Virus record (IMG/VR): IMGVR_UViG_3300001589_000034
Location: 1-28,274 of that record
From: a virus
DNA: 28,274 nt
Direction: 5' to 3' (one strand)
The position numbers were made by a program, and so were the translations under genes. The notes under the pieces are model-generated. The model searched no databases and was not told the origin of the DNA. It worked only from the letters and a program-made list of their open reading frames with translations. Positions within the stretch are counted from its first letter, which is position 1. Every line of letters begins with the position of its first letter. Positions 950-20,821 of the stretch are shown here, piece after piece.

Positions 950-3385
950 ATGAGCAATCCCCTTAAGTTGCGAACACATGCAAATGGGGTTTATAATAAT
1001 GGAGTCCAAGTCACAACAAATGCTGAGCTTGACTATTCCGTTAAATTAATAAACACTAAGTACGCTACAGAGTCAGGCTCTGGTGATCATGTTGGAGATT
1101 TAAATATCAATTCAACAGGTACTAGTGTTGGTACATTTGTAGATAATTTTGCAACTGGTGAACTCTTATCGCATCCTTATTCAGGATCAGCTGGCGCTAC
1201 TACTTATATATTTAAACAAAACGTTTCTTCTTTATCAGAAGCTAGTATGATTACACCTGCTACACATGGTGGTACATCTAATCCTGGTCATGTTGCACAA
1301 CAAACATCTACTCAATTAAACACTACTATAATGCAACTTTGCTTAGATGATATAGCTAAAGCTAATTCAACATATGCAGCTGCAGGATCTTATTACGTTA
1401 GTGTTAATGCACCTAGCATTGGTGGTACTTGGGTAGCTCAAGATCAATTCTTTGATGAAGTTACTAACAACGCAAATGATGAAGATCAAAAAGTTACTTA
1501 TAAGCTATGGAGAAAAACATCTCATACTAGTAGTCCTACTCAAGTTAAACTACTTAAACAATCTACTACCAACTTACAAGAAATGTCTGATACAGAAATA
1601 CAGACATTAGTAGCTAGATTAAGAAATAGAATAGTAGCAACAGGCGTCGGCACATATAAATTTCAAACTTCTATTCCTGGTGTAGGTACATGGGTTGCAA
1701 GAGGAGCTGCTACAGACAGAAATCCTAATATTGAAAATACTCAATATACCGGTAACTATACAGCACAATATGCTAATACTTTTGCTAGACAATTCCAAAG
1801 AATATTTAGTGATCAATATTCTAGAGGACAATTTGCTAGACAATATGCAGATCAATTCCAAAGAGTATATGCTGGTAGCTATGGACGTAGCTTTGCAAGA
1901 GGTTATATATCTAACTTTGCTAGAGGAGTAGCTGGTACTAACTATGATGGCCCACAATATACAAGAGTAGTTGCAGGCCTCTCATACGCAAGATCTACTC
2001 CTGGACCTCAATATGCTAGTGCTCAATTTCAAAGAGCATTTACTAGACAATATGCAGGTCAATATGCTCGTACATATTCCTCGCAATTTCAAAGACAGTA
2101 TGCAAGGGGAGATAACTATGCAGTATCTTTCACAGGCGCATATTCAAGAGGCATTACATATGCTGTCGCATATCTTTTAGTTTATTACGGTCAGTATGCA
2201 AGATCAACAGACGGACCAAACTATACTGTTAATTATACTAGGACATTTCTTAGACGATATACTAATAACTATTCAGTTCAATATGCTAGAAATTATTCAG
2301 CGCAATATCAAAGACAATATACAAGAGTATACTCAGCAAACTATACAAGAGCGGCTTATCAAAGATTTTATGCTGGCCAGTATGGTAGAACTTACATAGG
2401 GCAATATGATCAAAATTACTCAACAGGTAATCAGTTCACAGGTCTTTATTCAGGTACAGCTCCAGGATTCGATTTTTCTCAAGTCTTTTATAGAACAGTT
2501 TACTATTATAACGTTCCAGAAAGCGAAGCAAATGGTGGTGATGGAAGAGCATATTTTAGAGGCTCATATAACCGTGGGCCTATTCCAGTAAACTTTGTAA
2601 GAGGACAATATACAAGATTCTTCTCTAGAAGCTTTTCTAGAGCTACAGGTGGTCCACAGTATACAAGATCTGTGCCTTCTCTATCTTTTAATGGTCCTGC
2701 TTATGCTAGATCAACTCCAGGACCACAATATGATGGTCCTCAATATGCAAGATCAAGAGCAGGACCTCAGTATATAAGTACCTTTACTCGAGATGTAGCT
2801 GGTCCACAATATGATGGTCCTGCATATTCAGTTAGTTATTTAAGAAACTATACAGCACAGTATGCAAGAACAAGAAATGCTCCGGCATATTCGCGAATAT
2901 TTTATACTAGAACATTCGCAGGCTCTAGAAGTTATGGTGCTTATGGTAGACAATTTGCTGGACCTCAGTATGCTGGTCTATATGCAAGAGCTCAATATAC
3001 TAGAAGCACAGTAGGTCCTAACTATAATGGACCAACATACCTCACTCAATACACAAGAGTATATACAGCTGATTATGCTAGATCTTTCTCAGGGGATTAT
3101 CAGCGTCAATTTGCTAGACAATTTGTTGGTGCTTATAGTGTTACGTATGCAAGGTCAGTACAGTATACTGTAAACTTTGCTAGATCAAGACCTGGTCCTC
3201 AGTATACAGGTAACTTTATTCGTGGACAATTTACTGGACAATATACAAGATCAACACCTGGCTCACAGTTTGCTTCATCTTATAGCAATCAATTTGCTGG
3301 TTCTCGTAATAAACAGTATTCAGGCCTCACAGTTTCTTCAAATTATACTGAAAATACTAAGACCTTGTGGTTAAGAATTGCATAA
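950..3385 (+). CDS. Aromatic/arginine tetrapeptide-repeat structural protein, 811 aa (paralogue of the 1277-aa neighbour)
   Basis: The ATG follows AGGGG (938-942) with 7-base spacing. Residues 1 to about 260 form a non-repetitive N-terminal domain: MSNPLKLRT start, then TGTSVGTFVD, YKLWRK and RLRNRIVATGVGTYK. All of these motifs recur in the next gene. From about residue 265 to 790 the chain is an irregular series of four-residue blocks [YF]-x-[R/G/A/S]-x, for example YAGQ, YART, FQRA, mixed with 9-residue blocks of the YARSTPGPQ type. A non-repetitive insert near residues 500-550 contains NGGDG and RGPIP. The C-terminus TKTLWLRIA acts like a cap. Lysine is nearly absent from the repeat. No signal peptide or membrane span is evident. 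I infer a virion appendage or decoration protein from the neighbours; the family is not one I can name. Confidence 0.85.
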   Translation: MSNPLKLRTHANGVYNNGVQVTTNAELDYSVKLINTKYATESGSGDHVGDLNINSTGTSVGTFVDNFATGELLSHPYSGSAGATTYIFKQNVSSLSEASMITPATHGGTSNPGHVAQQTSTQLNTTIMQLCLDDIAKANSTYAAAGSYYVSVNAPSIGGTWVAQDQFFDEVTNNANDEDQKVTYKLWRKTSHTSSPTQVKLLKQSTTNLQEMSDTEIQTLVARLRNRIVATGVGTYKFQTSIPGVGTWVARGAATDRNPNIENTQYTGNYTAQYANTFARQFQRIFSDQYSRGQFARQYADQFQRVYAGSYGRSFARGYISNFARGVAGTNYDGPQYTRVVAGLSYARSTPGPQYASAQFQRAFTRQYAGQYARTYSSQFQRQYARGDNYAVSFTGAYSRGITYAVAYLLVYYGQYARSTDGPNYTVNYTRTFLRRYTNNYSVQYARNYSAQYQRQYTRVYSANYTRAAYQRFYAGQYGRTYIGQYDQNYSTGNQFTGLYSGTAPGFDFSQVFYRTVYYYNVPESEANGGDGRAYFRGSYNRGPIPVNFVRGQYTRFFSRSFSRATGGPQYTRSVPSLSFNGPAYARSTPGPQYDGPQYARSRAGPQYISTFTRDVAGPQYDGPAYSVSYLRNYTAQYARTRNAPAYSRIFYTRTFAGSRSYGAYGRQFAGPQYAGLYARAQYTRSTVGPNYNGPTYLTQYTRVYTADYARSFSGDYQRQFARQFVGAYSVTYARSVQYTVNFARSRPGPQYTGNFIRGQFTGQYTRSTPGSQFASSYSNQFAGSRNKQYSGLTVSSNYTENTKTLWLRIA
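1744..3330 (+). repeat. Coding tetrapeptide repeat tract, first paralogue
   Basis: The DNA has a 12-base coding period because the protein repeats every four residues with Tyr or Phe first and often Arg third. Nine-residue blocks (Y-x-R-x-x-x-G-P-x) and five-residue blocks interrupt it, so the register shifts between stretches. It is less regular than the second paralogue. The insert at roughly 2460-2590 breaks the repeat. Confidence 0.85.
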
Positions 3386-3388
3386 ATA
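3381..3388 (+). promoter_or_regulatory. Candidate T4-type late promoter, CATAAATA
   Basis: It matches the T4 late consensus TATAAATA at seven of eight positions and lies 58 bases before the next start codon. It overlaps the TAA stop of the 811-aa gene. An identical octamer sits in the same relation to the stop of the next gene at 7275, which argues against chance. Confidence 0.5.
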
Positions 3389-3445
3389 AACACATAGAAT
3401 TTCAATAACACTGCAGTTATACTGTCCATTCGGGAGAATTGATCC

Positions 3446-6400
3446 TTGGCAAATCCTTTAAGAATTAAAACTAGTTCGGGTACACCGAATACAACCAATT
3501 TCTCTGGCTTACAGAGCATGTCTAGTGCCGAAATGGATTACATGGCAGATATCATACTGGCTGATTTCGCTACAGGCACAGGCACAGGTGATATAAGCTT
3601 TTCAACAGGTACATCAGTGGGTACTTTTGTTGATACGAGAAGAACAGAAACAGTAGGAACACATCCAGCTACTGGAGCTACTAACTCTGTTACTACTACA
3701 CTTTATCAAAATATTGCTTCACATTCAGAGAGCGGTCTTGTAAGACCTCTTCAGTGGGATGCATCCAAAGGTATAGAAGAGCAAGACGACACTGATTTAA
3801 ATGCATCAGTAATGTCTCACCTAATTGCAAAGATAGCAAATACATCTAGTTACGCAACAGGGCAATACTTTTTAGGAGTATCTCCTCCATCTGGTGGTAC
3901 ATGGCAGGATAAAGGCACCTTTACTGATACAGTAGCTACTGGTGAATCAGCAGCAACTACATATAAACTATGGAGAAAGATTGCATCAGGTACTTCACCA
4001 ACTGAATATAGACCTTTGAAAGCAACTGCACATGCATCAACACCATCAGTTAATGAGATGAATAATACTGAGATTAAAACTCTCACACAAAGATTAAGAA
4101 ATAGAATAGTAGCTACTGGAGTAGGTACTTATAAGCTACAAACTGCTGCCCCAGGAACAGGAACATGGTTACAGGTATCAAATGCTATAGAAAATAGTTT
4201 ATCTGATGTTCAATCTCAGCAGTACTCACAACAATTTACTGGTAACTTCTCAAGACAGTTTACCAGAGTATATTCAGCACAGTATTCTAGACAATTTGCT
4301 AGAGCATTTACAGCTGACTATACAAGATCATTTACTAGACAGTTTACTGGTCAATACGCCAGAGCATTTAATAGATCATTTACAGCAGACTATTCAAGAG
4401 CATTTGCTAGACAATTTGCTGGTCAATATGCTAGGCAGTTTGCTAGATCATTTACAGCAGGGTATGGAAGATCATTTGCTAGATCATTTTCTGGTGAATA
4501 TGCTAGACAGTTCGCTAGATCATTCTCAGCAGGATACGGAAGATCATTCCAGAGACAATTTAACGGTCAATATGCTAGACAGTTTACTAGAGTATTCTCA
4601 GCGCAATATACTAGAGCGTTTGCTAGACAATATGCTGGTCAATATGCAAGACAATTCCAGAGAGTATTTAATGGTCAATATGCAAGAACTACTACTGGTC
4701 CTAACTATACTGTTAACTACGCTAGATCAACACCTGGACCTAATTACTCAGATGGTAACTATTCTAGACTAATTGTAGGACCTAACTATACAGTAGGTTA
4801 TGCAAGAGCGACACCAGGACCAAATTATTCAGACGGTCAGTATTCAAGAACTAGACCAGGTCCAAGTTATACTGTTAACTATGCTAGATCAACACCTGGA
4901 CCTAACTACTCAGATGGCCAATATACAAGAAGCAGACCGGGACCTAACTATACTGTTAACTATGCTAGATCAACACCTGGACCTAACTACTCAGATGGTA
5001 ACTATACTAGAAGTAGACCAGGACCAAGCTATACTGTTAACTACGCAAGAAGCAGACCAGGACCTAACTATAGTGATGGTAACTATGCCAGATCAAGACC
5101 AGGACCTAACTATGCAGTAGGCTATTCTAGATCAACACCTGGACCTAACTACTCAGATGGTAACTATACTAGAAGTAGACCAGGTCCTAACTATGATGTA
5201 GCTTATGCTAGATCAAGACCAGGACCAGGTTATTCAGACGGTAACTACGCAAGAAGCAGACCTGGGCCAGCTTATGCTGTTAACTATGGTAGAGTATACT
5301 ATGGTGCATATGCAACTAACTACGGTAGAGTATATTCAGCAGCATACGGAAGAGCTTTCGGAAGAGTATATGCAGGTAACTACGGAAGAAGTAGACCAGG
5401 ACCAGCTTATGGTGTAAGTTATGGTAGGTCAAGACCTGGACCAGCTTATGGTGTAGCATACGGTAGATCAAGACCTGGACCAAATTATACTTCAAACTAT
5501 GTTGTTAACTACGGTAGAGTTTATTACGGTAGCTATGCTAGATCAAGAGGCGGACCAAACTACGGCGTATCATATGGTAGATCAAGAGGCGGGCCGGCTT
5601 ATAACAGAGCAAGACCTGGACCAGCTTATGGTGTAAGTTATACAAGACAGTTTAATAACTCTTTTCCAAGTACTAACTATGGTGGAGTTTTCTCAAGAAA
5701 CTATCCATGGCAATCACCTTCACCTATTAATGGTGGTGATGGCTCTAACTTCTTTGGACCTCAATATGCTAGGGGACCTTTACCTGGCATTCAATATAAT
5801 GGACCAAACTATGCTGTTAACTATGGTAGAGTTTATTACGGTAACTATGGTAGAACTTATTCAGGTTCATATGCAGTTAACTACGGTAGACTATATGCTG
5901 GTAACTACGGTAGATCAAGACCTGGACCAAATTATGGTGTATGTTATGGAAGATCCTTTGGAAGAATCTATTACGGATCTTATACAGTAAACTATGGTAG
6001 AGTTTATTCAGCACAGTATACAGTTAACTATGGTAGAGTATATACCGGCAACTACGCAAGAAGTAGACCAGGACCTAACTATACTGTTAACTATGCTAGA
6101 TCAAGACCTGGACCAGCTTATGCTGTAAACTATGGTAGAAGCAGACCTGGGCCAGCTTATGCTGTTAACTATGGCAGAGTATATGCTGGCGCTTATGGAA
6201 GATCGTTTGGTAGAGTTTACTCAGCTAATTATAATAGATCATTCGGAAGAGTTTATAACGGTGCATATGCTAGACAATTTACTAGAGTTTATTCAGCTAG
6301 TTATACTAGATCGTTCGGAAGAGTATATTCAGCAGCATATGCTAGACAATTTACTAGAGTCTACTCAGCAGGATATGGAAGATCATTCGGAAGAGTTTAT

Positions 6401-7279
6401 AACGGTGCATATGCTAGACAATTTACTAGAGTCTACTCAGCAGGATATGGAAGAGCATTTGCTAGGCAATACGCTGGTCAATATGCTAGACAGTTTACTA
6501 GAGTATATTCAGCAGGATATGGTAGAGCGTTTGCTAGAGCCTATTATGGTCAGTATTCAAGAGCATTTGCTAGACAATTCTCAGCTGGTTATTCAAGAGC
6601 ATTCAACAGACAATTTACAGGAGCATATGCTAGAGGCTTCGTAAGAGTTTACTCTGCTGGTTATGGTAGATCGTTCTTAAGACAATTTACTGCACAGTAC
6701 ACAAGATCAACACCAGGTGTAACATTCTCTGATGGTCAGTATACAAGAAGCAGACCAGGTCCTAACTATGCAGTAGGTTATGCTAGATCAACACCTGGAC
6801 CTAACTACTCAGATGGTCAATATACAAGATTAATTGTAGGACCTAACTACGTAGTTAACTTTGCTAGAACTACTCCTGGACCTAGCTACTCAGATGGTAA
6901 CTATACTAGAGTAACACCAGGACCACAGTATACAACTAACTATGCTAGAACTACACCAGGACCTAGCTACTCAGACGGCCAATATACTAGAAGTAGACCA
7001 GGACCTAACTATGCAGTAGGCTACGCTAGAACTACTCCTGGACCAGGTTACACAGATGGTCAGTATGCTAGACTAGTAGTTGGACCAAACTTTGCAATAG
7101 GCTATGCTAGAGCTACTGGTGGACCAAGTTATTCAGATGGAACCTATTCTAGATCGACTCCAGGTCCTCAGTATACAAGTACATTTAGTAATCAGTTTAC
7201 AGGACAGTTCTCAGGTGATACTATTATGGCTAGTACTAGTGTAGAAAGCACAGTTAAACTATGGCTGAGAGTTGCATAA
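3446..7279 (+). CDS. Giant aromatic/arginine tetrapeptide-repeat structural protein, 1277 aa, TTG start
   Basis: The start is TTG. An in-frame TGA at 3440-3442 lies one codon upstream, GGGAG (3432-3436) is well placed, and the product MANPLRIKT matches the start of the paralogous gene. Residues 1 to about 255 are the shared N-terminal domain (STGTSVGTFVD, YKLWRK, RLRNRIVATGVGTYK). Residues about 259-1255 are repeats in three styles: tetrads with a 12-residue superperiod, 9+5+9+4 modules (YARSTPGPN, YSDGN, YTRSRPGPN, YTVN), and Gly-rich YGRVYYG tetrads. A non-repetitive insert near residues 735-780 carries NGGDG and RGPLP like its paralogue. The C-terminus is VKLWLRVA. Arg is roughly one residue in six to nine of the repeat, and Lys appears absent there. 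It is probably a long filament or adhesin of the virion. Confidence 0.85.
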   Translation: MANPLRIKTSSGTPNTTNFSGLQSMSSAEMDYMADIILADFATGTGTGDISFSTGTSVGTFVDTRRTETVGTHPATGATNSVTTTLYQNIASHSESGLVRPLQWDASKGIEEQDDTDLNASVMSHLIAKIANTSSYATGQYFLGVSPPSGGTWQDKGTFTDTVATGESAATTYKLWRKIASGTSPTEYRPLKATAHASTPSVNEMNNTEIKTLTQRLRNRIVATGVGTYKLQTAAPGTGTWLQVSNAIENSLSDVQSQQYSQQFTGNFSRQFTRVYSAQYSRQFARAFTADYTRSFTRQFTGQYARAFNRSFTADYSRAFARQFAGQYARQFARSFTAGYGRSFARSFSGEYARQFARSFSAGYGRSFQRQFNGQYARQFTRVFSAQYTRAFARQYAGQYARQFQRVFNGQYARTTTGPNYTVNYARSTPGPNYSDGNYSRLIVGPNYTVGYARATPGPNYSDGQYSRTRPGPSYTVNYARSTPGPNYSDGQYTRSRPGPNYTVNYARSTPGPNYSDGNYTRSRPGPSYTVNYARSRPGPNYSDGNYARSRPGPNYAVGYSRSTPGPNYSDGNYTRSRPGPNYDVAYARSRPGPGYSDGNYARSRPGPAYAVNYGRVYYGAYATNYGRVYSAAYGRAFGRVYAGNYGRSRPGPAYGVSYGRSRPGPAYGVAYGRSRPGPNYTSNYVVNYGRVYYGSYARSRGGPNYGVSYGRSRGGPAYNRARPGPAYGVSYTRQFNNSFPSTNYGGVFSRNYPWQSPSPINGGDGSNFFGPQYARGPLPGIQYNGPNYAVNYGRVYYGNYGRTYSGSYAVNYGRLYAGNYGRSRPGPNYGVCYGRSFGRIYYGSYTVNYGRVYSAQYTVNYGRVYTGNYARSRPGPNYTVNYARSRPGPAYAVNYGRSRPGPAYAVNYGRVYAGAYGRSFGRVYSANYNRSFGRVYNGAYARQFTRVYSASYTRSFGRVYSAAYARQFTRVYSAGYGRSFGRVYNGAYARQFTRVYSAGYGRAFARQYAGQYARQFTRVYSAGYGRAFARAYYGQYSRAFARQFSAGYSRAFNRQFTGAYARGFVRVYSAGYGRSFLRQFTAQYTRSTPGVTFSDGQYTRSRPGPNYAVGYARSTPGPNYSDGQYTRLIVGPNYVVNFARTTPGPSYSDGNYTRVTPGPQYTTNYARTTPGPSYSDGQYTRSRPGPNYAVGYARTTPGPGYTDGQYARLVVGPNFAIGYARATGGPSYSDGTYSRSTPGPQYTSTFSNQFTGQFSGDTIMASTSVESTVKLWLRVA
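4222..7212 (+). repeat. Coding repeat tract of about 3 kb with 12-, 36-, 72- and 81-base periods
   Basis: The basic unit is 12 bases (four residues). From about 4246 to 4683 three tetrads form a 36-base unit, YxRx-FxRx-[FY]x[AG]x, for about a dozen consecutive units. Around 4684-5280 and 6700-7160 the unit is 81 bases (27 residues); for example a stretch of more than 45 bases starting at 4870 recurs at 4951. A stretch of about 48 bases starting at 6335 recurs 72 bases later at 6407. Synonymous changes elsewhere show that the protein pattern is conserved beyond the DNA. Confidence 0.9.
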
Positions 7280-7336: not shown

Positions 7337-7753
7337 ATGGCAGATAAAAGATTTAAAAAAATCTTGTGGGAAGATCCAGAAACAAAGACAAGACTAAGGT
7401 GTCGGGAAATAACTGACACCGGAAGTCGTGAGATGATAATCGACAGAGCAGATACCGAAAATTGGGATGCTGCTTTACGCGAAACTACTCTAGATGAGAT
7501 CGATGCAAGAACTCAAGCTGATATAGATGAGTACAGAACCCAACGCGACACTCAAGAGCAAGAACAACAGGAAAACGAAAAGAGAGCTTTTGCAGAACAA
7601 CTGTTCCAAGCAAAATTAACTCTTTACGAACTTCCAGAAATAAAAGCCTCTACTAATAAAAAACTAAAACGAAGACTTCGTAAAGCAGAAACGTTTGAAG
7701 CATTAAACGTATATGCATCAGCAGTTGTGAGTGATTACGATGTCAGTCAATAA
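7337..7753 (+). CDS. Hypothetical coiled-coil protein, 138 aa
   Basis: The ATG has a good ribosome binding site, AAGGAA (7323-7328), with 8-base spacing. The protein is soluble and highly charged, unlike the beta-rich fibre genes around it. Residues 1-50 are mixed and polar. Residues about 55-95 are rich in Gln, Glu and Arg (DEYRTQRDTQEQEQQENEK) and likely a coiled coil. A basic patch follows (KKLKRRLRKAE), then a short tail. It overlaps the glycosyltransferase gene, which implies translational coupling. Two other small coiled-coil genes (14436, 16601) also follow fibre genes directly, so an assembly or chaperone role for the repeat protein is possible. I do not recognise the family. Confidence 0.75.
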   Translation: MADKRFKKILWEDPETKTRLRCREITDTGSREMIIDRADTENWDAALRETTLDEIDARTQADIDEYRTQRDTQEQEQQENEKRAFAEQLFQAKLTLYELPEIKASTNKKLKRRLRKAETFEALNVYASAVVSDYDVSQ

Positions 7754-8600
7754 GACATACGATAAAGGTTTTGTTATAGTAGCGACGCTACATCCCTGGT
7801 ATAAAAATAACGCACTTATTCTATTAGACTCATTAGATGAGTACTATCCTGACTGTAAAGTATTAATTGTAACACATAATACATGGGCAGATGAGTTTAG
7901 AGAGTATGATCAAGTAGTAGATATTATTACTGAAGATCAAGGTATGCCACATAGTACAAGAACAAAGCTATGGGGTCTACCATTTTCACCATTTAAAAAG
8001 ACATGCTATCTTGATGCTGATATGGAAATTGTTGATCCTGAAATACAGGATGTGTGGAAGCTACTTGATGATGAGCATGATATGGCTTTCTGTAAGATAA
8101 CAACAAGAGTTGGAGCATCAACAGCCATATATGCCGAAGACGGTAATGCTGGTATACGAGATGATGACCCTGAAAGAAACTTTATATGGCATGGTGGATT
8201 CTTTTTATGGAATGATACTGAAGCAGCTAATAATGTTATTAACAATTGGTGGCCTCGATATAAAGAAATAAACTGTTCAGTAAAATGGTGGGACGAGCAT
8301 CCTGAATATTGGATAGGTAATAAAAGCTGGGACCAATTTACATTATGGTATATAATGAAATTCGACGCACCAGGTATAAAAGTATCAGCTGTTGAGTTCG
8401 GTCAGGCTAAATGGAATTGGAATATGTACCTAAATGCTGAAGAAGAGGCAGGCTGTACACCAGTAATAAAACATCATCCATTAGATCGTCAATTAATGCA
8501 TAAAGCTTTACCAGAAGATTATAAGGATGCTGAAGATGAATGGGAGACGTTAACCCAAGAAGAAAAGGAACAAGCACGAGCTCCTCATGAGCAAGGATAA
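7740..8600 (+). CDS. GT-A type glycosyltransferase (nucleotide-diphospho-sugar transferase), about 286 aa
   Basis: The N-terminus GFVIVATLHPWYKNNALILLDSL is an alternating beta-alpha nucleotide-binding start. It is followed by SPFKKTCYLDADMEI, with the DxD-type motif D92-A93-D94 expected to hold the metal and sugar nucleotide. Later HGGFFLWNDTEAANNV, SWDQFTLWY and a C-terminal IKHH resemble the acceptor region and closing His of GT8-like enzymes. The C-terminal 35 residues are acidic and charged. The ATG at 7740 is preferred; a GTG at 7731 in the same frame would add three residues, and neither has a strong ribosome binding site. Overlap with the upstream gene suggests coupling. The enzyme would be cytoplasmic in the infected cell; the acceptor is unknown, with the adjacent repeat proteins or another virion protein as candidates. 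Confidence 0.8.
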   Translation: MSVNKTYDKGFVIVATLHPWYKNNALILLDSLDEYYPDCKVLIVTHNTWADEFREYDQVVDIITEDQGMPHSTRTKLWGLPFSPFKKTCYLDADMEIVDPEIQDVWKLLDDEHDMAFCKITTRVGASTAIYAEDGNAGIRDDDPERNFIWHGGFFLWNDTEAANNVINNWWPRYKEINCSVKWWDEHPEYWIGNKSWDQFTLWYIMKFDAPGIKVSAVEFGQAKWNWNMYLNAEEEAGCTPVIKHHPLDRQLMHKALPEDYKDAEDEWETLTQEEKEQARAPHEQG

Positions 8601-8606
8601 TTTATA

Positions 8607-9425
8607 ATGAAAATGCGTGACGTAAAGATTAAGAATCCAGAATTTATTAAACTATTAGATAATATATCTGGACTTGTTGATCAAGTATTCGATGATAAAG
8701 AGTTTTTAGATAGAGAACATAAGTTGTCTTTTGATCATCGTAACCCTGAGCAGAGAAGGAAAGAAGGTAAAGAAGCGTATAAAGTATCTCCTCACTTTGA
8801 TATACTACCAAGTCATACAAGAGATGATATTAAAGATGGACAGATGGATCCATGTGGTATGGAATACCTTCAGTATCAGATGAATTTAATGCGCAAAGAA
8901 AATGGCTCACATGTTACTAGCGGATTTCCTAATGCGGAAACATTCTTAGCTGGACAAACATTCTATAACAATCCTAAGTTCTTCTTAGGTACAAAACTTA
9001 AACAAGCTGTATATGATATATCAGCTGACTTTCTAGGTGGTGGAGCAATGGCGCTTTGTGCTTTTTATACACCTGGCACATTTATACCTTGGCATCATAA
9101 CGGAAATGCACCAGGTTATAACATATTATTACATTATAACAAAATAGGTGAAGGGGACTTCTTTACTTATGATAATGGTGAGATTTTAGAATACCCTGAC
9201 GCAAAGGGTTGGAGCTGTAGAGCAGGACAATTTATATCAACAGCACCAGAAAAAATACATAGAGAGAAAATAGGTATGGATAATCCGATAGTAAAATGGT
9301 CGGATAATCCAGAAGATTCTTCCTGGCATGCTGCGCATGCTCGTACAAATAGGTTTACATTATCAACAATAGTTAACCATCAGGACATATGGGAAGACTT
9401 AATCGATGAATTAGAAGACAACTAA
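8607..9425 (+). CDS. Probable Fe(II)/2-oxoglutarate-dependent oxygenase, 272 aa, with non-canonical HxN
   Basis: AAGGA at 8593-8597 serves the ATG. The C-terminal half looks like a double-stranded beta-helix: GTFIPWHHNGNAPGYNILLH, then GEGDFFTYDNGEI, and WHAAHARTNRFTLST. By analogy with 2-oxoglutarate oxygenases, metal ligands would be H163 (or H164) and H241 (H218 and H244 are alternatives), with R249 binding the 2-oxoglutarate carboxylate. The usual HxD aspartate is Asn165 here. Similar HxN-containing oxygenase-like proteins occur, from memory, in marine T4-like phages, so this may be a family trait. The N-terminal 100 residues are charged and unassigned. Placement right behind the glycosyltransferase suggests they act in one modification pathway; the substrate is unknown. 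Confidence 0.7.
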   Translation: MKMRDVKIKNPEFIKLLDNISGLVDQVFDDKEFLDREHKLSFDHRNPEQRRKEGKEAYKVSPHFDILPSHTRDDIKDGQMDPCGMEYLQYQMNLMRKENGSHVTSGFPNAETFLAGQTFYNNPKFFLGTKLKQAVYDISADFLGGGAMALCAFYTPGTFIPWHHNGNAPGYNILLHYNKIGEGDFFTYDNGEILEYPDAKGWSCRAGQFISTAPEKIHREKIGMDNPIVKWSDNPEDSSWHAAHARTNRFTLSTIVNHQDIWEDLIDELEDN

Positions 9426-9469: not shown

Positions 9470-9805
9470 ATGGCAACTAAAGCAAATCTAGTAATGGATA
9501 AAGGCTCTGACTTTAGTGTTTCACTAATTGTTACAGGTTCCGATGGAACAGCTTTTAATCTGACTGGTTATTCAGGTAATAGTAAGATAAGAAAACATTG
9601 GTCATCTAATGTTTATCATACTATGTCGTGTGATACCACATCAGATCCAACAGGAGGAGTTCTAACTCTATCCGCAAATAATACAATCACAGGCAACATA
9701 GCACCAGGAAGATGGAACTATGATGTCGAAGTATCTAATGCCTCTAATGAGGTTACTAGAGTACTGCAAGGTACTTTAACCGTAACACCGGAGATCAGTT
9801 ATTAA
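9470..9805 (+). CDS. Small virion structural protein with Ig/BppU-like fold signature, 111 aa
   Basis: The start MATKANLVMDKGSDFSVSL, then DGTAFNLTGYSGNSKIRKH and a GRWNYDVEV ... EVTRVLQGTLTVTPEISY end, match a small beta-sandwich type common beside marine T4-like fibre genes. They also resemble the N-terminal domain of siphophage baseplate upper proteins (BppU). AGAGG at 9459-9463 serves the start. Its stop overlaps the next ATG (TAATG), so the next two genes are probably coupled. A role as a fibre attachment or baseplate-proximal module is likely but inferred. Confidence 0.65.
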   Translation: MATKANLVMDKGSDFSVSLIVTGSDGTAFNLTGYSGNSKIRKHWSSNVYHTMSCDTTSDPTGGVLTLSANNTITGNIAPGRWNYDVEVSNASNEVTRVLQGTLTVTPEISY

Positions 9806-16600: not shown

Positions 16601-16858
16601 ATGAACGAAGAATATGTGAAAGCTTATATAGCTGCGATTAACGCTGAACTTCAGGCTAAAGTCTTAGAGATTATTAGCCTGAAGGCACAGCACCAAATGT
16701 TAAAAGACGTTAATAGGCAACAAGAAGAAGCAATCATTGCTCAAAGAGCAGAATTGCAACAATTAACACAGGTAGTAAATACTACTGAAGATACTTACGG
16801 AACTGAAGCAATTCAAGAACCGAAAAAGACTTCAGGTAAGAAGAAGATTAAGATTTAA
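16601..16858 (+). CDS. Small coiled-coil protein with basic tail, 85 aa
   Basis: The ATG follows AAGGA with 6-base spacing. Residues 1-65 form an almost continuous amphipathic helix (YIAAINAELQAKVLEIISLK, then LKDVNRQQEEAIIAQRAEL), a likely coiled coil. The C-terminus is Lys-rich (KKTSGKKKIKI). It sits directly behind a fibre gene and has an exact late promoter. Small proteins of this style accompany fibre genes in marine myophages; a role in fibre oligomerisation is plausible but unproven. Confidence 0.7.
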   Translation: MNEEYVKAYIAAINAELQAKVLEIISLKAQHQMLKDVNRQQEEAIIAQRAELQQLTQVVNTTEDTYGTEAIQEPKKTSGKKKIKI

Positions 16859-16873
16859 CCTTCCCTTACCCAC

Positions 16874-16881
16874 CTTAAATA
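16874..16881 (+). promoter_or_regulatory. Weak late-promoter-like CTTAAATA inside a hairpin
   Basis: CTTAAATA lies in the gap before the gene at 16894 but differs from consensus at two positions. It sits between the arms of an inverted repeat, TCCCTTA (16862-16868) and TAAGGGA (16880-16886); the second arm covers the likely ribosome binding site. It could be a promoter, an RBS-masking hairpin, or neither. Confidence 0.2.
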
Positions 16882-16893
16882 AGGGACACGAAG

Positions 16894-17505
16894 ATGGCAT
16901 CAAAAATTCTATTGAAGCGTTCTGCCGTATCAGGTCAGGCGCCGAACACATCCCACATATCAACAGGTGAATTAGCACTTAACTTACCAGACGGAGTCCT
17001 ATATGGCTCTAATGGTTCAGTTATATTCGAAGTCGGAGCTAATGTAACAACACTGACAGTTGGTAGTGGCAATGCAACAATTAATGGTTCAGGTCATGCA
17101 GTCATTGAAGGACTACATGTTAATGGATACTCATTTCCAGCTCAAGTTGGAACAACAAACCAAGTATTAATAGCTAACTCAACAGGCGATATATCGTTTG
17201 CGGATCAAGAATCAGCTGCAGTACAGGTTACAAATTTTACATTCTCAATTACGAGCACAAAAACTCTAATCGAAGGATCAGATGATAATTCACAAACACT
17301 ATCATATACAGCAGGAACAGAAGACGTATTCCTAAATGGTGTTAAGCTTGTAAGATCGGATGACTATGCACAAACTAATTCAACAGCAATTACATTAACC
17401 AGTGCAACAGTAAACGGTGATGTTCTTGAAGTAAGAAAAGTTGGTGTAATTGGAGTTAATGATCCCAGTAGACTTAGCTGCACCAGCAGATATATCTTCA
17501 GGTGA
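16894..17505 (+). CDS. Fibre-like structural protein, N-terminal part before a probable +1 frameshift
   Basis: MASKILLKRSAVSGQAPNTS plus STGELALNLPDGVLYGSNG is the N-terminal attachment module of marine phage fibres. Shaft-like residues follow (TTNQVLIANSTGDISFADQ), then a domain with TEDVFLNGVKLVRSDDY and GDVLEVRKVGVIGVNDP. After NDP at 17464-17466 the frame reads an uncharacteristic Arg/Ser/Cys-rich tail and stops at TGA 17503-17505. The next frame (+1) continues with PVDLAAPADISS and a conserved C-terminal domain. The likely full product is NDP-VDLAA..., spanning 16894-17782 and about 295 residues. Whether the shift is programmed, a mutation or a sequencing error cannot be decided here. 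Confidence 0.65.
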   Translation: MASKILLKRSAVSGQAPNTSHISTGELALNLPDGVLYGSNGSVIFEVGANVTTLTVGSGNATINGSGHAVIEGLHVNGYSFPAQVGTTNQVLIANSTGDISFADQESAAVQVTNFTFSITSTKTLIEGSDDNSQTLSYTAGTEDVFLNGVKLVRSDDYAQTNSTAITLTSATVNGDVLEVRKVGVIGVNDPSRLSCTSRYIFR

Positions 17506-17782
17506 TACTTCAGTAATTACATTGGATACATTCACTGTCGGGACGTACAGATCTGCTAAATACTTAGTGACTGCTAACACTTCAGATTCATGGCAATCTA
17601 GTGAAGCAATCGTGCTTCATGATGGAACTGATGGATTTATAACTGAATACGGTTCAGTATATTCCAATAATACGATATACACTTTAAGTGCAGATACAAA
17701 TGGTGGAAGTGTTAGATTGAGGGCCACTCCTTCTGGAGCAGGCACAACGTTTACTTTCAAGAAAATATTAATTAGGTCATAG
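17459..17782 (+). CDS. C-terminal domain of the same fibre-like protein in the +1 frame
   Basis: This frame is open from 17450 (TAA at 17447-17449) and its sequence is clearly coding: DTFTVGTYRSAKYLVTANTS, IVLHDGTDGFITEYGSVYS, IYTLSADTNGG, ending FKKILIRS. The same domain pattern (Y-x-SA-x-Y, HD-x-T, TEYG, YTL) recurs in the next gene, so the frame is real. If translated alone, ATG 17459 would be the start, with GGAG (17452-17455) only three bases away, which is too close to be comfortable. Continuation of the upstream protein by frameshift is the better explanation. Confidence 0.6.
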   Translation: MIPVDLAAPADISSGDTSVITLDTFTVGTYRSAKYLVTANTSDSWQSSEAIVLHDGTDGFITEYGSVYSNNTIYTLSADTNGGSVRLRATPSGAGTTFTFKKILIRS

Positions 17783-17795
17783 GAGATAATCTAAA

Positions 17796-18206
17796 ATGCC
17801 AAAGACAAAAGCAATGAGCCTCGCAGAGCTGATTAGACATATTAACTACGACAGTTCAAATGATTTACTTTCAACAACTAAGTCAATTAACTCAGAAGGT
17901 AAAACAAGAAAATCGTTAACTGGATTAGGAGCTACTCAAGTAACTCTACATCAGTTTGCGAAAGCAGATTACCAATCAGCACTATATCATATCGCAGCAG
18001 AGCAGGGCGGAGAATTTCATTCATCATTATTCTTAATAGGACATGATGACACAACAGTATACGTAACTGAGTATGGTGTATTAGAAAGTGATGCGTCACT
18101 TTATACTCTAGATGCAACCATCTCAGGAGCAAACGTAGTAACACAAGTAACACCAGTAAACAGTTCTACGAGCGTTAAGTTCTCAGTAGAATTCGTAAAC
18201 GGATAA
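17796..18206 (+). CDS. Structural protein with the TEYG-type C-terminal domain, 136 aa
   Basis: AGGAGA (17781-17786) precedes the ATG. Residues 1-55 are polar (AMSLAELIRHINYDSSNDLL). Residues about 60-136 repeat the domain found at the end of the preceding split gene: DYQSALYHIAAEQ, SSLFLIGHDDTTVYVTEYG, LYTLDATISGANV, ending FSVEFVNG. This small beta domain is, from memory, common in marine T4-like virion proteins. The function is structural by context; no motif for catalysis. Confidence 0.65.
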   Translation: MPKTKAMSLAELIRHINYDSSNDLLSTTKSINSEGKTRKSLTGLGATQVTLHQFAKADYQSALYHIAAEQGGEFHSSLFLIGHDDTTVYVTEYGVLESDASLYTLDATISGANVVTQVTPVNSSTSVKFSVEFVNG

Positions 18207-18209
18207 ATA
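18202..18209 (+). promoter_or_regulatory. Candidate late promoter, GATAAATA
   Basis: It matches TATAAATA at seven of eight positions and overlaps the TAA stop of the 136-aa gene, like the elements at 3381 and 7275. It is only 18 bases ahead of the next ATG, so any leader would be very short. Confidence 0.4.
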
Positions 18210-18226
18210 AGGGTATAGGGGAATAA

Positions 18227-20068
18227 ATGGCAAATCAAAATTTTAGAGTAAAAAACGGCCTTGAAGTTGGCGGCGTTGAAGTTGTTAATGGAACAGGTGT
18301 AGTTAACTCTACAGCATTGCCTGCGTCAGGCGCATCGGCCGGGACTTATGGTAACTCTACTTCCATACCTGTCGTTACCGTAACAGCAAAAGGCATAGTA
18401 ACAAACGTACAATCAGCAGCAGTAAGTGGTGTATCAAGTTTTGTATATACAGCAGCTAATACAACATTCGTATTAGGCACTGGTGACGGTACAACATATG
18501 CTCAGACAATCGTATTCGATGGAGACGGGTTCGTTTCTAACTCAAGTGGTATTCACTTAGAGTTGGACGGTGGAACGCTTCTAAACGGTTCTTCAGGGCT
18601 CTCTGTTAATGCAGCTGCTCTTAACCATGACCTATTAAATGGGTATGTGGCTAATGAACATATCGATCATAGCTCAGTAAGCACGATCGCTGGTAACGGA
18701 CTAACAGGTGGTGGAACCTTAGAAGCTAATAGAACATTAGCTATTAACTCAGGTGACTCAATAACAATAGCTAACTCAACTGGATTACATGTTAATACAG
18801 GCGCTATTGATATTACAAGTTTAAATAACTTTGTAGCTAATAAGTACATAGATCATACAACTGTCACAATGACAGCTGGTGCTGGTATGACTGGTGGTGG
18901 AGCTATTAATACTACTAGAACATTTGATGTTGTAGCAGATGATACTTCAATAGTAGTTACAGCAGACGGAATATCCGTTAATGCTCAGGTTATTGATCAT
19001 ACAACATTAAGTGGATATGATGTAAATGAAAATATAGATCATACAGGCGTCACAATGACAGCCGGTGGCGGTCTATCAGGTGGTGGTACAATCGCTTCTA
19101 CTAGAACATTTGCAGTAGGTGCTGGTGATGGTATGACTGTTAACGCAGATGACGTTGCAGTTAAACCAGGTACTGGTATAGCATCTAATTCAACTGGTGT
19201 TCATTTCCTAGCAGGACTTGGTCTTGGAGCTAACTCAACAACAGTAAAAGTATTAGCTGGAACAGGTGTAGTATCAAATACATCTGGTGTACATATTGGA
19301 CAGTCCGTAGGTACAACAAACGACGTAACATTCAGAGATATGGTTATCTCTGGCAACTTAACTGTACAAGGTACTCAAACTACTATAAGTACAGAAACTT
19401 TAACAGTTGATGATAACATTATCGTTCTTAATAATAACGAATCTGGTACTCCTTCAGAGGATGCTGGAATCGAAGTAGAACGTGGTACATCAACAAACGT
19501 AAAATTACAGTGGGACGAAGGCACAGACAAGTGGCAAGTTACTGAAGATGGATCGGCTTATTATGACTTACGTCATAAAGGTGTAGCGATTGCACTTGAT
19601 ACAGATACATCTGGTAACTTTGTAGACAACGTAACAGTTGGAAGTGGTCTTTCAGTATCAGGTACGCCTGGAGCTGGATGGGAGCCATCACTAGCAGTAG
19701 TACCTGGAACAGGTATCACAGCTAACAGCACTGGAGTCTTTACTAATGATTCGCAAATTGTTCATGACAGCTTAAGTGGGTTCGTTGCAAACGAGCATAT
19801 AGATCACTCAAGCGTTTCGATAACAGCTGGAAATGGTTTAACTGGTGGTGGTAATATTACTGCAACTAGAAACATAGCCGTAACAGGTGGAACAGGTGTA
19901 ACATCTAATTCAACAGGTGTTCATATAGGACAGAGCGTTGGCACAACAGATAACGTAACATTTAACGATGTAACAATATCAGCTAATGCGATTATATCTT
20001 CACTACAAGATAGTTCTAATAGAGTATTGAAAGTTTATAACAGTTCCGGATCGCTTATTTGGGGGTAA
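18227..20068 (+). CDS. Tail-fibre-like repeat protein, 613 aa
   Basis: MANQNFRVKNGLEVGGVEVV is a standard start for marine phage fibres. The shaft carries four related modules of the type NEHIDHSSVS-x-x-AGNGLTGGG, at about residues 143, 207, 262 and 522, with VGTT-[ND]-[DN]-VTF segments between. A conserved fibre domain near 360-445 reads NLTVQGTQTTISTETLTVDD, SGTPSEDAGIEVERG and LQWDEGTDKWQV. The C-terminus VLKVYNSSGSLIWG resembles that of the gene at 1-939. It lies immediately before gp13, where T4 carries gp12 and the whisker gene wac; I see no fibritin signature, so a functional match to wac is not claimed. Confidence 0.75.
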   Translation: MANQNFRVKNGLEVGGVEVVNGTGVVNSTALPASGASAGTYGNSTSIPVVTVTAKGIVTNVQSAAVSGVSSFVYTAANTTFVLGTGDGTTYAQTIVFDGDGFVSNSSGIHLELDGGTLLNGSSGLSVNAAALNHDLLNGYVANEHIDHSSVSTIAGNGLTGGGTLEANRTLAINSGDSITIANSTGLHVNTGAIDITSLNNFVANKYIDHTTVTMTAGAGMTGGGAINTTRTFDVVADDTSIVVTADGISVNAQVIDHTTLSGYDVNENIDHTGVTMTAGGGLSGGGTIASTRTFAVGAGDGMTVNADDVAVKPGTGIASNSTGVHFLAGLGLGANSTTVKVLAGTGVVSNTSGVHIGQSVGTTNDVTFRDMVISGNLTVQGTQTTISTETLTVDDNIIVLNNNESGTPSEDAGIEVERGTSTNVKLQWDEGTDKWQVTEDGSAYYDLRHKGVAIALDTDTSGNFVDNVTVGSGLSVSGTPGAGWEPSLAVVPGTGITANSTGVFTNDSQIVHDSLSGFVANEHIDHSSVSITAGNGLTGGGNITATRNIAVTGGTGVTSNSTGVHIGQSVGTTDNVTFNDVTISANAIISSLQDSSNRVLKVYNSSGSLIWG

Positions 20069-20074
20069 CACCTA

Positions 20075-20821
20075 ATGGCATTGCCAACGACCAGAACGGG
20101 ATTTAAAGAACATTGTCTAAGAAAGCTGGGTTATCCAGTAATTGAGATCAATGTAGAGGATATGCAAGTCGAAGATAGAATTGACGAAGCATTATCTTAC
20201 TATTGGGATTATCACTTTGATGGTGTATCGAAAGAATACTATAAGTGGGTAGTTACAGCTGATAATATAACAAACAAATACGTGGAAGTACCGGATAATA
20301 TAATCGGTGCTGTCCGCGTCTTTGATATTGGTGATGCTTTATCAACCAATAACTTATTTAATATAAGATATCAAATTGCATTGAACGATCTATATGATCT
20401 GACATCCTTCAATCAATCTCTCGTGACTTACTATACTAATATGCAACACATTCAATTCATTGAAGAGTTATTAGTGGGTAGGCAGCCTATTAGATTTAAT
20501 AGGAACATAAATAGATTATATATCGACATGGACTGGACTAAATTACAAGTAGGTGATCATATAATCGCCGAGTGTTACCAGATTGTTGATCCTGAAACTT
20601 TTCCTGACGTCTACAAAGACAGATGGTTATTGGCTTATGCCGCTGAAAAGATTAAATATCAGTGGGGAGCTAATTTAACTAAGTTCGATGGAATGCAACT
20701 ACCAGGCGGTGTACAATTTAATGGGGGCAAGATTATGGATGACGCAGGAGCTGAAATCGCAAAACTCGAACAAGAGATGATTTCATCATACAGCTTACCT
20801 GTTTCAGATATGGTCGGTTAA
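20075..20821 (+). CDS. 13: Neck protein gp13 (head completion)
   Basis: T4-type gp13, a component of the neck that closes the filled head and joins it to the tail. The N-terminal segment FKEHCLRKLGYPVIEINVED, then DRIDEALSYYWDYHFDGVSK, and the C-terminal YAAEKIKYQWGANLTKFDG are family hallmarks as I recall them. At 248 residues it is shorter than T4 gp13 (about 309). A GGGGGT stretch that includes the end of the preceding gene supplies the ribosome binding site. It is followed by gp14 after six bases, as in T4. Confidence 0.9.
   Translation: MALPTTRTGFKEHCLRKLGYPVIEINVEDMQVEDRIDEALSYYWDYHFDGVSKEYYKWVVTADNITNKYVEVPDNIIGAVRVFDIGDALSTNNLFNIRYQIALNDLYDLTSFNQSLVTYYTNMQHIQFIEELLVGRQPIRFNRNINRLYIDMDWTKLQVGDHIIAECYQIVDPETFPDVYKDRWLLAYAAEKIKYQWGANLTKFDGMQLPGGVQFNGGKIMDDAGAEIAKLEQEMISSYSLPVSDMVG

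Follow-up and report, generated by a model that had tools for sequence, protein, structure and literature searches.

The window, 28,274 bp taken from an uncultured virus record of 45,227 bp, carries two tandem giant genes (ORF A and ORF B). Their products belong to a genuine repeat family from the tail-fibre region of uncultured aquatic T4-like phages, which is unexplained by the libraries searched. The genes downstream, encoding a putative glycosyltransferase (GT) and a protein with a hydroxylase fold, went unmentioned in the original prediction and are the strongest clue to function. On balance we slightly favour, as the best explanation of the whole, a tail-region fibre that would be matured by dedicated phage enzymes.

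Architecture and genomic context of ORF A and ORF B

The relevant features of the window are as follows:

1-939, + strand: tail-fibre-like gene upstream of ORF A, 5′ truncated at the window edge
950-3385, + strand: ORF A, open reading frame of 811 aa, ATG start
950-1744, + strand: ORF A N-terminal domain (N-domain), three tandem subdomains of the type RPLK...EMSDAEIxxLxxRLRNRIxxTGIGxY (from alignment; confident in the AF2 model of a relative)
1748-3316, + strand: ORF A aromatic-tetrad region, with a non-repeat GGDG island near 2432-2609
3317-3385, + strand: ORF A conserved C-terminus TKTLWLRIA and stop
3446-7279, + strand: ORF B, open reading frame of 1277 aa, TTG start after GGGAG
3446-4210, + strand: ORF B N-terminal domain
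4226-7211, + strand: ORF B aromatic-tetrad region, with tetrads, 13/14/27-residue PGP-containing units and a three-tetrad superperiod; island near 5666-5810
7212-7279, + strand: ORF B conserved C-terminus VKLWLRVA and stop
7337-7753, + strand: d138, small charged protein encoded between the repeat and GT genes
7731-8600, + strand: d289, predicted GT-A-type glycosyltransferase, overlapping d138; DxD at D92/D94, numbered from the ATG at 7740
8607-9425, + strand: d272, double-stranded beta-helix protein of modelled 2OG-dioxygenase/prolyl-hydroxylase fold, HxN not HxD
9470-9805, + strand: d111, PHROG 'L-shaped tail fiber protein assembly' (phrog_1084)

ORFs A and B have three non-repeat parts in common, namely the N-domain (41-42% identity, paralogue match E 6e-69), whose three tandem subdomains were read by eye from the alignment, a central 'GGDG' island and a conserved C-terminus (TLWLRIA/KLWLRVA). 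The dominant unit in both is a [YF]-x-[R/G/A/V]-x tetrad. Pairs of aromatic residues at i and i+4 numbered 68 in ORF A (shuffled mean 20.1, maximum 33 in 500 shuffles) and 140 in ORF B (shuffled mean 35.8, maximum 53). The reading frames, the shuffling and the N-domain identity bear out the proposal of two tandem paralogous giant proteins with a four-residue aromatic repeat, and the repeat does last for about 1000 residues in ORF B, the larger of the two. The four-residue period is less strict than had been claimed: a spacing of 4 dominates, but spacings of 9 and 5, the next most common, arise from (R/T)PGPN pentads and YSDGN units. At tetrad position 3 of ORF B, Arg is the commonest residue without being fixed (R 67, V 24, G 23, A 17). 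Moreover, the pattern of ORF B recurs every three tetrads (a superperiod of 12 residues, or 13-14 with PGP pentads), the class of residue at position 3 matching at lag 3 in 92/104 comparisons (z = 10.3); in ORF A this superperiod is weak (z = 1.8).

The 140 tetrads of ORF B are encoded by 112 different 12-mers that specify only 74 peptides. The codons beneath the tetrad peptides vary, and the repeat is conserved at the protein level. An artefact of low-complexity DNA expansion was ruled out by these varied synonymous codons and by the retention of the pattern in sequence-distant relatives.

T4-like genes for head closure, tail sheath stabiliser, terminase, sheath, tube and portal lie downstream, and the terminase of this phage shares 57% identity with that of cyanophage S-SSM7. 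ORFs A and B were located to the tail region on account of the tail-fibre-like gene upstream, the L-shaped-tail-fibre-assembly gene downstream, and the baseplate wedge and tail genes surrounding the homologue in Phage C48C1. Likewise, the annotation of d111 assigns the intervening cassette to the tail-fibre cluster. Genomic location thus places these genes in a T4-like (Kyanoviridae-type) tail-fibre/baseplate region. Elsewhere on the same phage contig, at 35.1-36.2 kb (G000 35060-36212; L012:9061-10213), a nucleotide-sugar dehydrogenase gene (NCBIfam E 2.5e-21) adjoins an rfaE domain II/cytidylyltransferase-like gene (E 1.2e-19) of the heptose/glycerol-phosphate nucleotidyltransferase type. 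A separate observation concerns the 1112-aa protein encoded at window:10035-13373. Its C-terminal half is similar in sequence to proteins from giant phages of Caulobacter and Brevundimonas (phrog_8578), and on this basis the protein is a candidate for tail-module exchange.

A family of repeat proteins in uncultured phages

Four IMG/VR loci were matched directly with ORF B as the query, and 124 stretches with an alignment of the N-domain. These loci contain 102 ORFs with the N-domain (72 distinct), and tetrads follow it in nearly all. The more than 100 members consist of an N-domain of ~245 aa, a repeat region that differs greatly in length from one member to another, and a C-terminal motif, L[WFY]xRxx in nearly all complete members (LWxRxA in ORFs A and B). 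They range from about 314 to over 3300 aa and from 9 to almost 400 tetrads, with unbroken period-4 runs of up to 79 tetrads. The superperiod of 12 residues recurs in L002 and C48C1 and is absent in L083.

Across the 72 distinct members, position 1 of the tetrad is occupied by Y>F>W and position 3 mainly by Gly, with Arg in the clade of the window and Lys in the clade of L077, L081 and L083. Therefore, of the aromatic-x-Arg-x pattern first described, the aromatic residue at every fourth position is constant, whereas Arg is the flavour of one lineage only, replaced elsewhere by Gly or Lys; Arg was accordingly rejected as the key residue of the repeat. The three Lys-type proteins also use Trp ([YWF]-x-K-x) and contain >230 tetrads.

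Among eight pairs of relatives that align cleanly, 56/60 indels are multiples of 4 aa, although these pairs were picked after the output had been seen and the aligner tends to hold the aromatic register. Over all 93 pairs compared, multiples of 4 are not dominant (202/663), because some clades mix tetrads with other spacers. Three distant N-domain proteins encoded next to the enzymes (L148, L153, L163) have Tyr/Gly/Pro repeats that are not spaced by 4, and a fourth (L170) is hardly repetitive. The aromatic fraction is 12-31% in all members, while the repeats carry net charges between +155 and -116. Each of 103 repeat regions contains at least 7% Tyr, 6.6% Thr, 4% Gly and 4% Ser, whereas Pro, Arg, Lys and Asn each drop to zero in some of them.

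When 50,697 phage records were searched, the N-domain or protein was matched in Phage C48C1 (Kyanoviridae, OQ984149.1) only. Its hypothetical protein WJE88074.1 resembles ORFs A and B in having the N-domain, [YF]-x-[G/R]-x tetrads and a C-terminal LYVRVA. Unlike them, it is 3347 aa long (L001 14983-25026), favours Gly over Arg at position 3 and has several non-repeat islands and an internal duplication. The latter is a stretch of ~80 residues, starting KTRHRSYLYYSTD, that occurs twice.

Comparison with known repeat families and folds

Searches of Pfam returned no match for ORF B and one sub-threshold DUF match for ORF A, whilst PHROGs gave one weak, unnamed match for ORF B. Neither ORF B nor its C48C1 relative had a sequence match in the PDB. 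Nineteen short relatives produced only weak Pfam matches, chiefly to Gly-zipper_YMGG in 4 (best 3.5e-6). For one short member (L021, 370 aa), AF2 modelled the N-domain and the C-terminal strand confidently, and repeat residues 251-345 have a pLDDT <50. Foldseek comparison of this model, with its low-confidence repeat part, against PDB and BFVD yielded nothing better than E 0.14. The original view that the tetrads belong to no named repeat family therefore holds for Pfam, PHROGs, PDB and Foldseek on PDB and BFVD. It was also right to set aside collagen, as Gly-X-Y triplets are absent and the repeat of A and B is aromatic with a period of 4, and to set aside pentapeptide and hexapeptide repeats, ORF B having no match to a Pfam repeat family. 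A literature search on the aromatic-tetrad repeat, Phage C48C1 and phage hydroxylase-fibre systems, with most subscription journals outside its coverage, returned nothing on point.

Tail proteins with other tetrads were also considered. A structural protein of the marine phage S-RIM2 (L013) has a different tetrad, VTGN/LTGN, at residues ~1540-1670, and gives weak PDB matches to the triple-stranded beta-helix of T4 gp5. The similarity between the C48C1 repeat and this protein (E ~0.7) was rejected as homology, the S-RIM2 protein being a VTGN repeat. The beta-helix of gp5/VgrG was matched neither by ORF B in the PDB sequence search nor by the L021 model in Foldseek, where the repeat was modelled with low confidence. 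As in gp5-type and VTGN proteins, the tetrads of A and B repeatedly set a Gly two positions from a hydrophobic residue along a phage tail protein, but that residue is aromatic rather than aliphatic and the tetrads have no PDB sequence match.

These comparisons bear on how the repeat might fold. The tetrads could form an unmodified, structured fibre by themselves, with the neighbouring enzymes unrelated to it. They might fold either into a monomeric beta-solenoid in which each turn takes up three tetrads, or into a trimer with a triple-stranded beta-helix of the kind seen in the T4 gp5 spike. The strict period of 4 in long runs and the 12-residue superperiod of ORF B, L002 and C48C1 are consistent with such a fibre, as is the weak match of the VTGN protein, with its hydrophobic-x-Gly-x tetrads, to gp5. 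However, AF2 gave no confident solenoid for the one member modelled, the superperiod is not general, and the near-complete linkage to the GT and d272 genes (see below) would be left unexplained. We regard self-folding without modification as unlikely; the solenoid or spiral put forward originally is not supported as stated, since the only repeat model, an AF2 monomer, has a pLDDT <50.

The low-confidence repeat model and the aromatic fraction of 12-31% in every member would suit disordered Tyr/Arg 'stickers' engaged in cation-pi contacts, giving an adhesive or gel-like coat with a chemistry like that of mussel-foot proteins or FG repeats. Altered spacing in some relatives fits this too, and an adjoining hydroxylase-fold gene would suit side-chain hydroxylation. 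Yet the long unbroken four-residue register and the whole-tetrad indels of pure-tetrad clades exceed what stickers need, and the range of net charge means that pairing with Arg is not general. A sticker coat is thus also improbable.

A cassette linked to the repeat gene

Downstream of the repeat gene the window has the order d138, d289, d272, and phmmer recovered the same order in C48C1 and most loci of the first scan; in C48C1, as in the window, d111 comes next (d138-GT-d272-d111). A scan with d272 identified at least 548 viral relatives. By a script tally of the 58 d272 loci with ≥3 kb of upstream sequence, some of which are near-identical or overlap the first scan and so are not all independent, 57/58 have the N-domain and/or a tetrad protein and 57/58 have the GT. 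Locus L162 encodes a tetrad protein in which the N-domain was undetected; L180 has neither repeat protein nor GT. In the 57 positive loci the repeat gene precedes a small gene, the GT gene and d272.

Phage C48C1 is the only one of the 50,697 phage records in which the N-domain, GT and d272 occur together. The GT was found in no other record of this set, and d272 in one other, as a partial uncultured match. By contrast, d111 is present in 123 phage records, and in HTVC008M the d111 gene lies within a baseplate/tail cluster from which the cassette is absent. The wide distribution of d111 and the example of HTVC008M indicate that the cassette behaves as a unit that can be missing from similar tail clusters. 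The HxN family of d272 is common in uncultured phages but very rare in cellular genomes, where d272 had three matches. Each of these came from a metagenome bin or assembly, and d138 and GT accompany two of them. Outside its fibre cluster C48C1 encodes two further d272 paralogues, at record positions 16797-20411 (L109) and 38630-42295 (L110), one of them near genes for NifU, UDP-glucose dehydrogenase and a nucleotide-sugar epimerase.

Gene order of this kind could be a by-product of collinear phage structural modules, with the GT and dioxygenase-fold protein modifying some other target, such as a host envelope glycan, another tail fibre or d138. T4-like phages do keep gene order, the nucleotide-sugar genes of the contig could serve other glycans, and the extra d272 paralogues of C48C1 stand outside the fibre cluster. 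On the other hand, d111 belongs to the same module and is widespread without the cassette, whilst the N-domain, GT and d272 are gained and lost together. We therefore consider another target quite unlikely.

Predicted activities of d289 and d272

The DxD motif is present in the nucleotide-binding core of d289, as expected of a GT-A enzyme, and is found in 99/101 distinct d289 sequences. A d289 profile had 19 matches in the PDB, all glycogenins (best E 0.007), and family members match Glycos_transf_2, Nucleotid_trans and Glyco_transf_8 of Pfam weakly. From the motifs and these weak E-values, d289 is read as a GT-A glycosyltransferase of GT8/glycogenin-like type. Glycogenin glucosylates a Tyr, which makes Tyr an attractive predicted target for d289.

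AF2 modelled d272 with eight strands (pLDDT 88.4, pTM 0.88). Foldseek related the model to PHD2, PolD and P4H (probability 0.96-1.00, E ~2e-4), but with low TM-scores (~0.25-0.3); 28 PDB matches had E ≤ 1e-3, mostly prolyl hydroxylases. Together these identify a double-stranded beta-helix, and the model confidently predicts a prolyl-hydroxylase fold. Sequence searches were less informative: there was no convincing match in Pfam or NCBIfam, one weak PHROGs match to a 2OG-Fe(II) oxygenase, and no significant hhalign alignment with PF13640 proteins. In the active site H163, H241 and R249 are invariant. However, Asn replaces the carboxylate of HxD/E in 105/107 sequences, so that d272 lacks the full HxD/E...H iron triad with 2OG-binding Arg. 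For this reason d272 was not classed as a confirmed dioxygenase, and given the HxN it may not be a hydroxylase. This variant of the dioxygenase fold is of interest in its own right.

A proposed modified fibre

From the gene neighbourhood and family-wide composition we infer a virion location, an oligomeric shaft, action of the enzymes on the repeats and a target residue. ORFs A and B are quite likely to encode a virion fibre; their products would be fibrous structural components of the tail or baseplate region in an aquatic, T4-like myophage. The N-domain may dock or oligomerise them. The aromatic tetrads would make up an elongated shaft, which lengthens or shortens in evolution as repeat units are gained or lost and which may be closed by the C-terminal LWxRxA strand. 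d138 is possibly an assembly factor.

That the cassette enzymes modify the repeats is reasonably likely. The GT-A glycosyltransferase would place a sugar on repeated side chains; with dedicated enzymes of its own, the phage probably glycosylates the repeats at Tyr, Thr or Ser. Because Pro, Arg, Lys and Asn can be zero, any single modification common to the whole family must fall on one of these three residues. Pro was rejected as a universal hydroxylation target, as it makes up 0% of some members. Sugar donors are plausible given the nucleotide-sugar genes of the contig and the epimerase and UDP-glucose dehydrogenase genes near a d272 paralogue of C48C1. The prolyl-hydroxylase-fold protein may hydroxylate the shaft, or prepare or recognise it. 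The outcome would be a densely decorated fibre that could act as a coating or an adhesin for host contact.

In collagen-type maturation a 2OG prolyl/lysyl hydroxylase and a glycosyltransferase act on a repeat fibre. The cassette resembles this in logic only, without homology, in combining a repeat fibre, a prolyl-hydroxylase-fold protein and a glycosyltransferase; it differs in having no Gly at every third residue, no Pro in many members, and HxN rather than HxD. Phage virion glycosylation offers a second comparison, as in mycobacteriophage Maravista, whose glycosyltransferases are proposed to act on the capsid (PMC11256854). There too a phage-encoded glycosyltransferase is thought to act on a virion protein, whereas the cassette described here sits in the tail-fibre cluster of a myophage and is tied to a repeat protein and to a partner of dioxygenase fold.

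Our data define a large, nearly uncultured phage protein family that has an unassigned N-domain fold and a repeat explained by none of the libraries searched, and they link it to a putative dedicated modification cassette. Tentatively, the family may represent a class of phage fibre not described before, one that is widespread among uncultured T4-like phages of aquatic habitats and in which aromatic tetrads are served by their own two-enzyme system (a GT8-like enzyme that targets Tyr or Thr/Ser, and a dioxygenase-fold protein with an atypical HxN). Such a system would be a phage equivalent of the way collagen is hydroxylated and glycosylated. Modification of the repeats, if true, would mean that a hydroxylation/glycosylation route dedicated to a fibre had evolved in phages themselves, and would bear on host adsorption, evasion of host defences and biomaterials.
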